5,472 nucleotides of DNA. Source: Candidatus Bathyarchaeota archaeon. Its GTDB lineage: Archaea; Thermoproteota; Bathyarchaeia; Bathyarchaeales; Bathyarchaeaceae. Positions 2,591-5,472 of the stretch are shown here, in pieces. The first letter of the stretch is position 1. Every line of letters starts with the position of its first letter. The notes under the pieces were generated by a model, which worked only from the letters and a program-made list of their open reading frames with translations, did not search any database and was not told where the DNA came from. The translations under genes were made by a program, and so were the position numbers. Location of the stretch: the NCBI GenBank assembly GCA_020350305.1, contig CP070709.1, forward strand, positions 197,598 to 203,069, read 5' to 3'.

Positions 2591-3151
2591 TTATCTTGCG
2601 GTCGTGCCATTAATAATCCGTTCCCCAAGTTGGTAGTAATTGAAGTCGCCTCCGGTGGCCCAGATAATTGGATGAACCTTTCTCCAATCGAGCTTACCAT
2701 CTGTAATGCAACGTGGATCAGCATATGATTTGATGACTCGGCCTATGATTCCTTCGTTAGGGTCGTAGTCGAGGATTTCAGTCACTTCACACTCCATGTT
2801 TATGGGACACTGGCGAATCATTGGAGCGGTTTTCAGCTCTCCGTAAAATGTGTCAAAGAGCGATCCCTTGTCAAAGTCCCGGCCAGATTTGCTTCCACAG
2901 ATATTTGTTTCAGCCAATAGATCCTCTGAAGGAATGTTCACACTGAATGTTCTATTCTCATGAATTCCAATTCGCGTATAACGTTTCTTATACAGGCTAA
3001 TGAAGATGTGTTTTCCAAAGTCAAAAGGCGAACTGTATCCAATCACGAGGTAGTTTGGCTGGTTGTTGACCATCGCTCCAACCAAGACTATCGGTAGTGG
3101 GCTCAGCAGATTACCTTCAAGCTCCTTTTTGATTGATTTCGCTTCACTCAT
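2591..3151 (-). CDS. Flavin reductase-like FMN-binding split-barrel protein (flavoredoxin type)
   Basis: This is a single flavin-reductase-like domain; family members bind FMN in a dimeric split barrel and pass electrons from NAD(P)H or other donors. Numbering is from ATG 3157. The central strand and loop HIFISLYKKRYTRIGIHENR (50-69) is followed by FSVNIP (71-76) and NICGSKSGRDFDK (85-97), the flavoredoxin-type signature. A C-terminal WATGGDFNYYQLGERI (166-181) matches the family's usual G...Y..LGE ending. Length (186 aa) is normal. ATG 3151 is preferred over ATG 3157: GGTGA at 3163-3159 lies 7 bases before the second ATG but only 1 base before the first. The PhzF-family gene follows after 15 bases. 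A TATA-like element at 3230-3239 suggests its own promoter, separate from the ars-like operon. The electron donor and acceptor cannot be told from sequence. Confidence 0.9.
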   Translation of the reverse strand: MSEAKSIKKELEGNLLSPLPIVLVGAMVNNQPNYLVIGYSSPFDFGKHIFISLYKKRYTRIGIHENRTFSVNIPSEDLLAETNICGSKSGRDFDKGSLFDTFYGELKTAPMIRQCPINMECEVTEILDYDPNEGIIGRVIKSYADPRCITDGKLDWRKVHPIIWATGGDFNYYQLGERIINGTTAR

Positions 3152-3191
3152 ATGCATTCACCACTGGTGTAACCCTTAGGTTAGGGACATG

Positions 3192-3214
3192 TGTACAATC
3201 CCGTCATGAGTACA
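3192..3214. repeat. Inverted repeat TGTAC-N13-GTACA, possible operator
   Basis: Perfect 5-base arms (3192-3196 and 3210-3214) are separated by 13 bases, giving roughly two helical turns between half-site centres. It lies just downstream of the candidate TATA box of the flavin reductase gene, where a dimeric repressor could block transcription. Short arms mean chance is possible. Confidence 0.25.
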
Positions 3215-3229
3215 AAGCTTTGCATATTT

Positions 3230-3239
3230 CTATATTTAT
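3230..3239 (-). promoter_or_regulatory. Candidate TATA box for the flavin reductase-PhzF pair
   Basis: The minus strand reads ATAAATATAG here. Transcription would start around 3205 and leave a leader of about 50 bases. The inverted repeat at 3192-3214 would lie across the start point. This rests on pattern only. Confidence 0.35.
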
Positions 3240-3362
3240 CCGATCAATCATTCAATACACCATGCCATTGCAGCTAGAACAACCGCGGTCATTGGAACTG
3301 GGTCTGCCAAGAGAAGATCCAGATCAACGCTCACACCCATGCTAGCGAAGGAATCGGGAAAC

Positions 3363-3377
3363 AGTGTGGTGCACACT
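3363..3377. repeat. Perfect 6-base inverted repeat behind the Cys-rich minigene
   Basis: AGTGTG (3363-3368) and CACACT (3372-3377) flank a 3-base loop. On the minus strand this hairpin lies about 30 bases after the minigene stop and could help end or stabilise the operon mRNA. There is no strong T-run after it. Confidence 0.3.
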
Positions 3378-3380
3378 TCA

Positions 3381-3397
3381 GATTCAATGAATGAATC
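3381..3397. repeat. Second perfect 6-base inverted repeat behind the Cys-rich minigene
   Basis: GATTCA (3381-3386) and TGAATC (3392-3397) flank a 5-base loop, 3 bases from the neighbouring inverted repeat. In the minus-strand transcript it would form a hairpin starting about 9 bases after the minigene's TGA. The pair resembles an mRNA 3'-end structure, although AT-rich 6-base arms are weak alone. Confidence 0.3.
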
Positions 3398-3406
3398 ACT
3401 CACTGC

Positions 3407-3502
3407 TCAACAACAGCTAGTTTCTTTCTGCTCAGTGCTACAGCAGCTTGATTGCTGTTTTACTTGGTTCTCTACCTTTTTCTCTACCTTTTTACCATCC
3501 AT
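3407..3502 (-). CDS. 31-residue cysteine-rich minigene coupled to arsM
   Basis: I do not recognise a described family. The product starts [17 protein letters not shown], a charged Lys/Glu/Gln stretch with V at 6, 10 and 14 that could form a short amphipathic helix. It ends in two vicinal-cysteine motifs, SSCC (18-21) and TSCC (28-31), and CC are its last residues. Four of 31 residues are Cys, and there is no Trp, Tyr, Phe or Leu. Translation is strongly suggested. GGAGGTGAG at 3515-3507, a near-ideal SD, ends 4 bases before the ATG, inside the last codons of arsM, and the frame overlaps the arsM end by 11 bases. CC pairs bind soft metals such as As(III); ArsM itself carries SCCG and DCC. Inference: a detached thiol tail, As(III) carrier or reductant for ArsM. 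The gene could be dispensable, but chance placement of such an SD is unlikely. Confidence 0.72.
3470..3493. repeat. Perfect 12-base tandem duplication inside the minigene
   Basis: CTCTACCTTTTT occurs twice head to tail (3470-3481 and 3482-3493). On the coding (minus) strand it encodes the repeated Lys-Lys-Val-Glu of the minigene. Being a multiple of three, the duplication lengthens the helix without a frameshift. It reaches into the arsM stop codon. Confidence 0.85.
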
Positions 3503-4325
3503 TATTCTCACCTCCTAATACTTTATTCGTGTGTGTTTGTTTCTCCATGTCTTTTGTACGTCTCATTCGCTTGTGTGCTTTGACTTGAACACTTTTTATT
3601 TGTGCTTGTGAACAACAATCATTGAAGGTTCTTTCCGAAATGATTTTGACGTTTTTGAACCCAACTCTCCTTATGGTGTTCAGATACTGATTCTTTTCCA
3701 GCGCGCCTGCAACACAGCCCGCCCATGCGTCAAAGCTTTTCCTGACAGATTCAGGCAATTCTCCCTCTGTAACCAGATCGGAGATCATTATCCTTCCACC
3801 CGGTTTCAGGACTCTGTATGCCTCTTGAAACACCTTTTTCTTGTCAGGAGATAGATTGATCACACAATTGCTGATTACAGCGTCGATGGAATTATCTTCA
3901 ATGGGGAGATTCTCTATCTCTCCAAGTCTAAACTCCACATTCGTGTATCCGTACTTGGAGGCTGAAGCTTTTGCTTTTAGAACCATCTCTCTAGTCATGT
4001 CGATGCCAATAGCTTTCCCGCTTGGTCCAACTCTTTTTGCCGCAAGGAAAACATCGAATCCACCGCCTGAACCTAAATCCAAAACGGTCTCTCCTTCCTT
4101 TAAGCTGGCTAATGCAGTGGGATTTCCACAACCTAAACCCATATTGGAAGCTTCTGGAACATTCCTCAAATCCTCCTCTGAGTAGCCCATACTTAGAGCT
4201 GCATCTGTGTGTGCATGCGTCGATGAACCACAGCAGGATTTTCGCGTGCACGCTATCTCACCGTATCTTCTTTTCACGAATTCCTTGACTTCTTTTTCAG
4301 AGTGGTTTCCTACAGTGCTCTTCAT
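3492..4325 (-). CDS. arsM: Arsenite S-adenosylmethionine methyltransferase
   Basis: ArsM transfers methyl groups from SAM to thiol-bound As(III), giving methylated and partly volatile arsenicals; it is a cytoplasmic class I methyltransferase. Seen: an N-terminal [13 protein letters not shown] (21-33) with vicinal C31/C32; MGLGCGNP (62-69) with C66; SAM motif [12 protein letters not shown] (81-91); GIDMT (107-111); [14 protein letters not shown] (153-166) with C154; VLKPGGR (172-178); and AGCVAGAL (202-209) with C204. C154 and C204 are 50 apart, as are C174 and C224 of algal CmArsM, so the As-binding cysteines are present. An additional DCC (236-238) and a basic tail of about 25 residues end the 277-aa protein, within the family range. 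ATG 4325 overlaps the protease gene's stop (ATGA) and has GAGGTGA 7 bases upstream. The end carries the minigene's SD. No ArsR or arsenic efflux gene is in view. Confidence 0.95.
3507..3515 (-). promoter_or_regulatory. Near-ideal Shine-Dalgarno site of the Cys-rich minigene
   Basis: The minus strand reads GGAGGTGAG, fully complementary to the anti-SD core, 4 bases before the ATG at 3502. It lies within the arsM coding end, where it encodes Gly-Gly-Glu in a tail that is not part of the methyltransferase fold. It has no other visible purpose than to start the minigene. Confidence 0.75.
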
Positions 4326-4747
4326 GTATTCGTCACCTCTGAATCATTTCCACTCACACGCACAAACGACACTTCTTGTTGAGGATAATTGACGACAACT
4401 CGATAGTCTTTCATGAAATTGTATCCAATTACACCACCCACAGGCGTTCCCATCATGTTTGAGAGTGGTGTCAGATCATGTAGTCCAACATCAATATCCT
4501 TCGCTTTAGCATCACCTACTTGTATGGATTCAGCTTTCGCTAGAGTCATGGTCACACCAGCAAAAGAACCACTTAATGCTCTTCTTTGACCCCATGCTTT
4601 CTCATAAAGACCCAGTGCCTCGCTTGTGTGTTCTGTGATGGTTGTTATGCTGGCTCCTGTGTCAACTAGGAATCTGAAAGGGCCTTCACTGTTTACTCCG
4701 GCTTTAATGATGATTATAGGTGCCTTTTCAGGCAACTGAAATCTCAC
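4322..4747 (-). CDS. Retropepsin-like single-domain aspartic protease
   Basis: Family seen: an aspartyl protease of the retropepsin/gag-polyprotein type, which works as a homodimer with one catalytic Asp per chain. Numbered from the upstream ATG 4762 (146 aa), the active-site FLVDTGAS spans 31-38 with D34. The closing signature [18 protein letters not shown] (109-126) matches the family's G.(I/L)G.(D/N)FL...(V/I).(I/V)DY pattern. No signal peptide or membrane segment is visible, so it should be cytoplasmic. I prefer GTG 4747 (141 aa): GGAGGT at 4760-4755 lies exactly 7 bases before it, whereas ATG 4762 has no SD and would use that SD as coding sequence. The gene ends in an ATGA overlap with arsM and begins 38 bases after the nitroreductase stop. 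Substrate unknown; processing of ArsM or the minigene product is possible but speculative. Confidence 0.85.
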
Positions 4748-4754
4748 CTTTTCT

Positions 4755-4760
4755 ACCTCC
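4755..4760 (-). promoter_or_regulatory. SD that sets the protease start at GTG 4747
   Basis: Minus-strand GGAGGT is followed by 7 bases and an in-frame GTG at 4747-4745. The alternative ATG at 4762 directly abuts this site, so it cannot use it. Confidence 0.6.
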
Positions 4761-4785
4761 ATCTTTGTGCTGCGTCATAGCGGAT

Positions 4786-5379
4786 TTAGTGGAATTTGAA
4801 TGGATTCCCATATGTTTCCTCAAAGCAGATTTCTTGAAGGCTTTTTCTCGGTCTAGGCGGAGGGTCTTCATCTGGTATTCCTATTGCCACAAGAACAATA
4901 ATGTGCATGTGTTCAGGTATTTTCAATGTCTTCTTGACTTCATTAATCCATTCTTTCGGACGCGACTCATAGTTAGCAATCCAACAAGTTCCGTAGCCCA
5001 ATGCTGTCGCCGCCAACACTAAATGTTCCGTGGCAATCAAAGGATCCCGCGTGGCCCAAGTCGCCCGGGGGCAACATGAAACGCTTGGATCTCCAAGCAC
5101 CACAACTATGGCGTTTGCATCAGCGATGAAAAGTTGGGTGAGAAACGTGCGATTCTGAAAGTAAGGTTTTGCGAGAAGCTTTTTAGTTTTCTGATCTTTT
5201 ACAATTATGAAGCGCCATGGTTGACTGTTTTCTGCAGATGGAGCAAGTCGGGCTGCTTCAAGAATTTTCTTCAGGTCTTCTTCTGGAATGTCATACTGCT
5301 TATATTTCCGTATAGCTCTCCTCTTTTCAACTATTTCGAAGTAGTTTTCCGCCACACATAAGCTTTCATGTTTTCTCAT
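4786..5379 (-). CDS. Nitroreductase-family FMN-dependent oxidoreductase
   Basis: Members are homodimeric FMN enzymes that reduce nitro groups, quinones, flavins or other acceptors with NAD(P)H. Seen: EKRRAIRKYKQYDIPEEDL (18-36), whose basic residues contact the FMN phosphate; EAARLAPSAENSQPWRFIIV (41-60), the canonical flavin-binding stretch; DPLIATEHLVLAATALGYGTCWIA (112-135); and a C-terminal GIPDEDPPPRPRKSLQEI (167-184), typical of archaeal and anaerobe members. The length of 197 aa is ordinary. ATG 5379 has GGAG at 5393-5390, 10 bases upstream. SCC at 101-103 is an unusual vicinal Cys pair for this position, and the same motif recurs in two downstream genes. It is probably the first gene of the operon, behind the TATA at 5425-5432. 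Substrate unknown; a link to arsenical or thiol redox chemistry is only inferred from context. Confidence 0.92.
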   Translation of the reverse strand: MRKHESLCVAENYFEIVEKRRAIRKYKQYDIPEEDLKKILEAARLAPSAENSQPWRFIIVKDQKTKKLLAKPYFQNRTFLTQLFIADANAIVVVLGDPSVSCCPRATWATRDPLIATEHLVLAATALGYGTCWIANYESRPKEWINEVKKTLKIPEHMHIIVLVAIGIPDEDPPPRPRKSLQEICFEETYGNPFKFH

Positions 5380-5424
5380 CTATTTATCGCTCCGTGTTTC
5401 TACAACCACAAGGTAGTAGAAAGA

Positions 5425-5432
5425 TATTTAAA
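5425..5432 (-). promoter_or_regulatory. TATA box of the nitroreductase-protease-arsM operon
   Basis: TTTAAATA on the minus strand, with purine-rich GAGAAGG just upstream as a possible BRE. Transcription would start near 5400, giving a leader of about 20-25 bases that holds the GGAG at 5393-5390. It is the only convincing promoter above the four-gene run. Confidence 0.5.
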
Positions 5433-5437
5433 CCTTC

Positions 5438-5457
5438 TCTGACAGAATCTTATCAGA
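5438..5457. repeat. Inverted repeat TCTGA-N10-TCAGA beside the operon promoter
   Basis: Five-base arms at 5438-5442 and 5453-5457 lie immediately upstream of the TATA/BRE of the minus-strand operon. It could be a regulator half-site pair. The minus-strand T-rich stretch beyond it (5458-5472) could instead be the 3' end of a gene outside the window. Short arms make both readings weak. Confidence 0.2.
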
Positions 5458-5472
5458 AAAAGGAAGAAAAAA

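Follow-up and report, generated by a model that had tools for sequence, protein, structure and literature searches.

Directly behind the arsM gene of a Candidatus Bathyarchaeota archaeon lies a micro-ORF of 31 codons which, judged by its sequence conservation, is a true small gene. The encoded peptide is best explained as a free-standing dithiol tail that would act in trans with a CC-type ArsM, i.e. an As(III) SAM methyltransferase with an extra vicinal cysteine pair, most likely as a carrier or acceptor of the arsenical; we put about even weight on this reading. Positions without a locus name refer to the whole analysed stretch of 5,472 nucleotides, here called the window. An earlier note on this DNA had called the micro-protein undescribed, and indeed no description of it was found in the literature searched, which comprised titles, the beginnings of abstracts and passages, with subscription journals mostly outside the coverage.

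The micro-ORF is located at 3407..3502 on the minus strand (31 aa plus TGA, ATG at 3502-3500). A Shine-Dalgarno sequence (SD), GGAGGTGAG, is found at 3507..3515 on the same strand, 4 nt ahead of the ATG, and the first 11 bases of the frame overlap the end of arsM (3492-4325, minus strand). The coordinates thereby confirm the short minus-strand frame, the overlap and the strong SD which the earlier note had described. The translated frame shows a Lys/Glu-rich head, for which a helix is predicted at residues 2–22 with low confidence (mean pLDDT 62), and a dithiol tail. Its four cysteines in 31 residues are arranged as CC-x8-CC, with CC as the final two residues. In-frame repeats of 12 bases (GGTAGAGAAAAA type) at about 3470-3495 (minus strand) encode the KKVEKKVE part of the head. 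Neither Pfam nor NCBIfam gave a family match for the peptide (E 0.001). For comparison, 400 windows were simulated with a first-order Markov model that preserved length and dinucleotide composition. GGAGG-led frames of 20–60 codons turned up 0.93 times in each of them on average, i.e. about one is expected by chance. In 0 of the 400 did such a frame carry two CC pairs; the real window holds one, the micro-ORF itself.

Homologs were sought in the 256 genomes of one class, which was chosen by way of G001 (genome of L007, Candidatus Bathyarchaeota archaeon) and is taken to be Bathyarchaeia. The arsM search matched 84 of these genomes at 94 places (E <= 1e-80); together with L084 (E 3e-73) and the window, 96 arsM loci were examined downstream. 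A plain scan for CC-rich frames found three full-length homologs: L085:2325-2408 in genome G066 (ArsM 87% identical to that of the window in the aligned part), L086:1381-1476 in G070 (GTG start, ArsM 80%) and L088:1380-1469 in G143 (ArsM 72%, spacing CC-x9-CC). Their peptides are 54–71% identical to that of the window, and M1, K9, SSCC, E24, K26 and SCC are invariant in all four. An HMM built from these four, run across the 96 loci, gave E-values of 5e-15 or better for the window, L085 and L086 and of 1.3e-10 for L088, followed by a next-best match at E 0.46. A form with one CC pair, MEEKKKIGKEETEKAKESQGCCGT, is located in L090 (genome G185) behind the same SD and ATG; it was missed by the HMM and found by reading the sequence. 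The SD core GGAGGTGA is common to the window and all four relatives.

When the HMM was run against the 256 whole genomes, three strong matches were obtained (E 1e-13 to 1.8e-9), all directly behind arsM, as well as 16 weak ones in fifteen genomes (E 0.02-0.8). The weak candidates were rejected after inspection for CC-bearing frames: five loci gave none and the remainder were unlike the peptide, including one at L129, whose two CC pairs lie on the opposite strand in a hydrophobic frame of unrelated sequence. A sample of 398 genomes of the phylum returned G070 and G143 again, plus a weak match in G412 (E 0.006). Among 5.8 billion proteins one called relative was found, P0121, a protein of 35 aa whose Lys/Glu repeat is longer by four codons. 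As the same protein set did not yield the peptides of G066, G070 and G143, these appear to be unannotated. Thus, the expectation that gene callers miss such a frame is nearly true, the exception being P0121, which had been called.

Immediately behind the micro-ORF, at 3248-3403 on the minus strand, there is a 51-aa frame with a GTG start and without a family match in Pfam or NCBIfam; L086 is similar over about 20 codons and then divergent. Read-through of the TGA into this frame was considered and rejected, as a stop follows after five codons in L085 and the peptide of L088 ends SCCSA-TAA.

Codon comparison yielded dN/dS ratios of 0.35 (window-L085), 0.26 (window-L086), 0.31 (L085-L086) and 0.20 (L085-L088); in the remaining two of the six pairs the synonymous sites were saturated. 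For the SSCC tail, pS was 0.83 and pN 0.08 between the window and L088, and 0.16 and 0.17 between the window and L085, the latter showing no sign of constraint. In a permutation test the same substitutions were placed at random and open frames with as few amino-acid changes were counted. This gave 0.0035 for window-L088, 0.0155 for L085-L088 and 0/2000 for L086-L088; the three closest pairs (0.17, 0.08 and 0.13) have diverged too little for a decision. Where divergence is greater, the head has changed more than the tail. Indels among the peptides are in frame, including the four additional codons of P0121. One might still suppose that the frame is not a gene, being a chance frame or the relic of a tail formerly fused to ArsM, because it is short, because L090 is down to one CC pair and because the closest pairs lack significant constraint. 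Yet SD, frame, Cys pairs and in-frame indels are kept across peptides of such divergence, the ratios of 0.20–0.35 in four pairs and the significant constraint in the diverged pairs answer the question of selection that the earlier note had raised, and the simulated windows contained no such frame. We regard this possibility as extremely improbable.

The distance to arsM is variable. The micro-ORF follows after a gap of 12 nt in L086, where the arsM stop touches its SD, of 44 nt in L085, 49 nt in L088 and 304 nt in L090. The last ~25 residues of the window ArsM, where the overlap is located, are not common to close relatives, except partly to P0004 (Candidatus Bathyarchaeota archaeon), the best named match to this ArsM (80%); therefore, the overlap is particular to the window. 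Translational coupling by overlap, as originally proposed, is accordingly seen in the window and not in the four relatives. Since the SD of the peptide is conserved and the overlap is not, the micro-ORF appears to be translated independently of arsM, and it is presumably co-transcribed with the cassette. L090, with one CC pair at a distance of 304 nt, suggests that two CC pairs and tight coupling are dispensable.

The ArsM of the window (3492..4325, minus strand) scores 352.3 bits against NF008823 (cut-off 263). The alignment places C66, C154 and C204 opposite C72, C174 and C224 of CmArsM (4FR0, 4KW7), the As-binding cysteines of that enzyme (PMC5552862); the triad is thus intact. In addition, the window ArsM has a vicinal pair, C237-C238. 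Among 65 ArsMs aligned at this site, five have CC there, those of the window, L085, L086, L088 and L090, and these are exactly the loci, among the 96, with a micro-ORF behind arsM. We know of neither a microprotein nor a C237-C238 pair in CmArsM and its kin. At the other 91 of 96 loci neither micro-ORF nor CC pair at 237-238 was found, a count that includes L094 and L108 with a partly masked ArsM end and L099, L138, L160, L168 and L185 with < 500 bases behind arsM. The 31 ArsMs unaligned at 237-238 have no CC within their last 70 residues; in L104 and L109 a CC is present, but at the WAGC site of C204. The proposal that relatives with the same arsM share a CC-bearing frame thus came out favourably within one ArsM clade (five loci), and among the 96 loci the conserved link of a Cys-rich small protein with arsM is confined to this clade; the peptide is thus not a partner of ArsMs in general.

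A tree of 38 ArsMs unites those of the five micro-ORF loci with six metagenomic CC-type proteins (P0002, P0003, P0005, P0006, P0007 and P0088) in one group (support 88/63), and therefore the pairing of micro-ORF and CC-type ArsM may reflect a single origin. The sister of this group, with moderate support (93/72), is P0053, which has no CC at 237-238 and carries a fused tail ending KEENSCCSAY with one CC only. A search for further ArsMs with a tail of this type returned P0053 alone. A label test on the tree spoke against clustering (5 changes, 500/500 shuffles as low); it was set aside because the six metagenomic ArsMs, whose DNA context was unseen, had been scored as lacking the micro-ORF. Two further observations concern other ArsMs. 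P0019, P0037 and P0041 are relatives of 348–351 aa with an insertion of ~95–100 residues shortly before a conserved C-terminal SVQVEAYK-like stretch. P0114, an ordinary-type ArsM without CC at 237-238 and ~69% identical to the window ArsM (P0001), probably belongs to the same genome as the latter.

Cysteine pairs are also found fused to ArsM itself. Of the 80 matches listed from a contig scan with the ArsM alignment, we surveyed the 79 ArsMs that include a stop codon; best identity among the matches listed was 59%, i.e. these are more distant ArsMs, the close relatives having come from the class-genome search. Two CC pairs within the last 40 residues were present in 15 of these 79 ArsMs among the matches listed, all bacterial by title, and one CC pair in four more. 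The spacing is CC-x3-CC in 13 of the 15 and CC-x11-CC in two (L033 and L058), which read SSSCC...SCC. Examples are L033 and L058 from Lentisphaeria and L035 and L047 from Nitrospira; the C-terminal dithiol tail of ArsM is a grouping made in this analysis, not a curated family. As in these tails, the two vicinal Cys pairs of the peptide are separated by a short distance and lie at the C-terminal end or not far from it, and the enzyme family involved is the same. It differs in being a separate frame with its own SD and start (window, L085, L086, L088, L090) and a Lys/Glu-rich head, and in its spacing of x8 (x9 in L088) versus x3 or x11; the window ArsM has no fused tail. When a part is found fused to a protein in one lineage and on its own in another, the two forms commonly share a partner, so the peptide is taken as a tail of ArsM working in trans.

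Vicinal cysteine pairs are also found in the arsenic metallochaperone ArsD (PMC4562236, PMC12607644), located in R773 ArsD at the C-terminal positions 112-113 and 119-120 (PMC4562236). With ArsD the peptide has in common its small size, its place in an arsenic gene set and the vicinal Cys pairs; unlike ArsD, it has no ArsD domain (Pfam/NCBIfam, E 0.001) and no Cys12-Cys13-x4-Cys18 chaperone site, and it would work with ArsM instead of ArsA. Selenocysteine-carrying AhpD or DUF2284 domains fused to ArsM (NF041537, NF041536) are listed in PMC13188914. There, too, ArsM is supplied with an extra thiol or selenol part, but in the form of fused domains with Sec instead of a free 31-aa Cys peptide, and the window ArsM scores far below the cut-offs of both families.

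As putative roles, the earlier note had proposed As(III) delivery, re-reduction of ArsM or buffering of arsenic; the fused CC tails and the CC motifs in other proteins of the cassette now lend this some backing. Trivalent arsenicals are bound by vicinal thiols, of which ArsD offers an example, and the peptide is therefore taken as an arsenical carrier or acceptor. Its two CC pairs would be ligands of trivalent arsenic (As(III) or methylarsenite), and it would work in trans with an ArsM having its own extra CC at 237-238, as the counterpart of the CC-x-CC tail fused to the C-terminus of some bacterial ArsMs. Its most likely task would then be to carry or accept the arsenical locally, next to the enzyme; arsenic binding, ArsM contact and transfer direction are what we infer. 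An alternative role would be that of a metallothionein-like buffer for arsenic or other soft metals, made alongside ArsM and without contact to it. Four Cys per 31 residues, the own SD and a distance from arsM ranging from -11 to +304 nt all speak for this. Against it stand the pairing to one ArsM type in 5/5 loci and the presence of just two Cys pairs, and the peptide has no Pfam match, including to a metallothionein profile, although this is a weak test at such short length. We consider such a buffer distinctly unlikely.

The genes around arsM form a cassette. All five micro-ORF loci share the order nitroreductase - retropepsin-like protease - arsM - micro-ORF. In the window, the first gene codes for a nitroreductase-family flavoprotein (4786..5379, minus strand; PF00881, 7.3e-26), followed by a retropepsin-like (clan AA) aspartyl protease with a DTGA motif (4322..4762, minus strand; PF13650, 3.6e-13), which overlaps the arsM start by 4 nt. 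A flavin-reductase-like gene is located at 2591-3157 (minus strand), 249 bases beyond the micro-ORF. Such a gene lies behind arsM in the window and L086, but also in L087 and L091, both without micro-ORF, and was not found in the 0.9–1.5 kb behind arsM of L085, L088 and L090. These flavoproteins bear on the possibility that the peptide is a redox partner, a small dithiol reductant which, following every methylation step, would restore the reduced state of ArsM (by opening its disulfide) or reduce the pentavalent product, and would itself be reduced by them. ArsM chemistry requires a thiol reductant, and the nitroreductase is present in 5/5 loci. On the other hand, vicinal CC disulfides are strained, the peptide has no CxxC or thioredoxin-like motif, and the flavin reductase has the distribution just described, with and without the micro-ORF. 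This role appears unlikely to us, if conceivable.

The protease is found upstream of arsM in 5/5 micro-ORF loci; it has a single domain in the window and in L085 and a tandem of two in L086, L088 and L090. The first domain of the tandem proteases (L196:9375-10187, L197:9254-10093, L198:9204-10037) contains GCCS in L196 and L198 and GCYS in L197, and the active site in L198 reads DTAS in place of DTGS. Only 9 of the 256 genomes have such a protease (E <= 1e-8). It adjoins arsM in six of the nine: G066, G070, G143, G185, G062 (downstream) and G193, where it is an 88-aa frame without a Pfam match. An ordinary arsM, with neither protease nor micro-ORF, takes the slot flanked by nitroreductase and flavin reductase in G049 and G060. 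Compared with window positions 2614-5472, G049 (L200, G049:C116) is 85.7% identical in nitroreductase plus promoter and 91.9% in the flavin reductase, versus 72.9% in arsM. Protease, CC-type arsM and micro-ORF thus appear to have been exchanged as one block, as far as a G049 contig of only 3,121 bases can tell.

A cassette with a protease, a methyltransferase, a nitroreductase-family flavoprotein and a short Ser/Thr/Cys-rich peptide also invites comparison with a RiPP-like precursor, in which case the methyltransferase homolog, retropepsin and nitroreductase would modify and cut the peptide, and arsenic would be incidental or carried. That protease and peptide are both missing where an ordinary arsM fills the slot fits this idea. 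But the ArsM has the full arsenic-binding triad and scores above the ArsM cut-off, the protease adjoins arsM without a micro-ORF in G062 and G193, and a non-exhaustive scan, covering 9 proteins of the window and 10 flanking ones, found no RiPP maturase or exporter. A precursor of this kind is in our judgement very improbable. The same scan revealed no arsR, arsC or acr3 among these proteins, and therefore the link to arsenic is drawn from ArsM. A search for HTH_5 (ArsR-type) domains in six genomes was uninformative, as all six have 10–24 each.

A divergent regulator with a CC near its C-terminus (at 246-247; 245-246 in L198) is located upstream in L195 to L199 (L195:6696-7451, L196:10914-11675, L197:10781-11536, L198:10727-11476, L199:7474-8229); the window itself ends ahead of the regulator gene. 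Pfam assigned TrmB in both cases tested (L196 and L197), and L195, L198 and L199 look alike. The proteins end NPKCC or NPRCC plus a few residues and have further conserved Cys near 44 and 202. All four relatives of the window with a micro-ORF have a CC-ended TrmB-like regulator alongside. L199 has one in the absence of the micro-ORF and therefore the regulator does not depend on it. Judged by its cysteines, this protein is a candidate metalloid sensor for the cassette. A possible operator, the imperfect palindrome TTCTACTACC-N4-GGTTGTAGAA, is found at 5398..5421, with a TATA-like TTTAAATA on one side and the start of the nitroreductase gene on the other. The strict pattern TTCTACTAC...GTAGTAGAA just downstream of the TATA-like box occurs in the window, L196, L197, L198 and L200, and in L195 and L199 the palindrome is recognized by alignment only. 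It is the site that the TrmB-like regulator may bind.

Taken further, the peptide would be a dedicated carrier on which arsenic is bound during its methylation: the CC-type ArsM would take As(III) from the peptide or act on peptide-bound arsenic, the CC regulator would sense the metalloid and the protease would clear or trim the loaded peptide. If true, metalloid methylation would here follow a peptide-carrier logic instead of relying on glutathione. We think this extended version quite improbable. For the tail acting in trans as such, the following count in favour: strong homologs only behind arsM (three of 256 genomes), joint occurrence of micro-ORF and CC-type ArsM in 5/5 loci, the fused CC tails and the tail of P0053, purifying selection with in-frame indels, the regulator CC and the block exchange seen in G049. 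Against it count that the five loci, belonging to a single clade, do not stand for independent events, the divergent L090, the x8 spacing versus x3/x11, the unconstrained tail between the window and L085, the position of P0053, which is moderately supported and has one CC and no 237-238 CC, the scan without arsR, arsC and acr3, and the CC-ended regulator of L199.

CC tails on ArsM are already plain in the sequences; their free-standing form in a retropepsin-ArsM cassette was not found described in the parts of the literature covered, and the literature search yielded no description of such a cassette beside a CC-ended TrmB-like regulator. Proteins below annotation limits are hard to tie to a function; in this case a single enzyme is indicated by linkage, by selection and by the fused counterparts. 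This leads to testable claims on how archaea, many of which to our knowledge lack glutathione, feed thiols or arsenic to ArsM.
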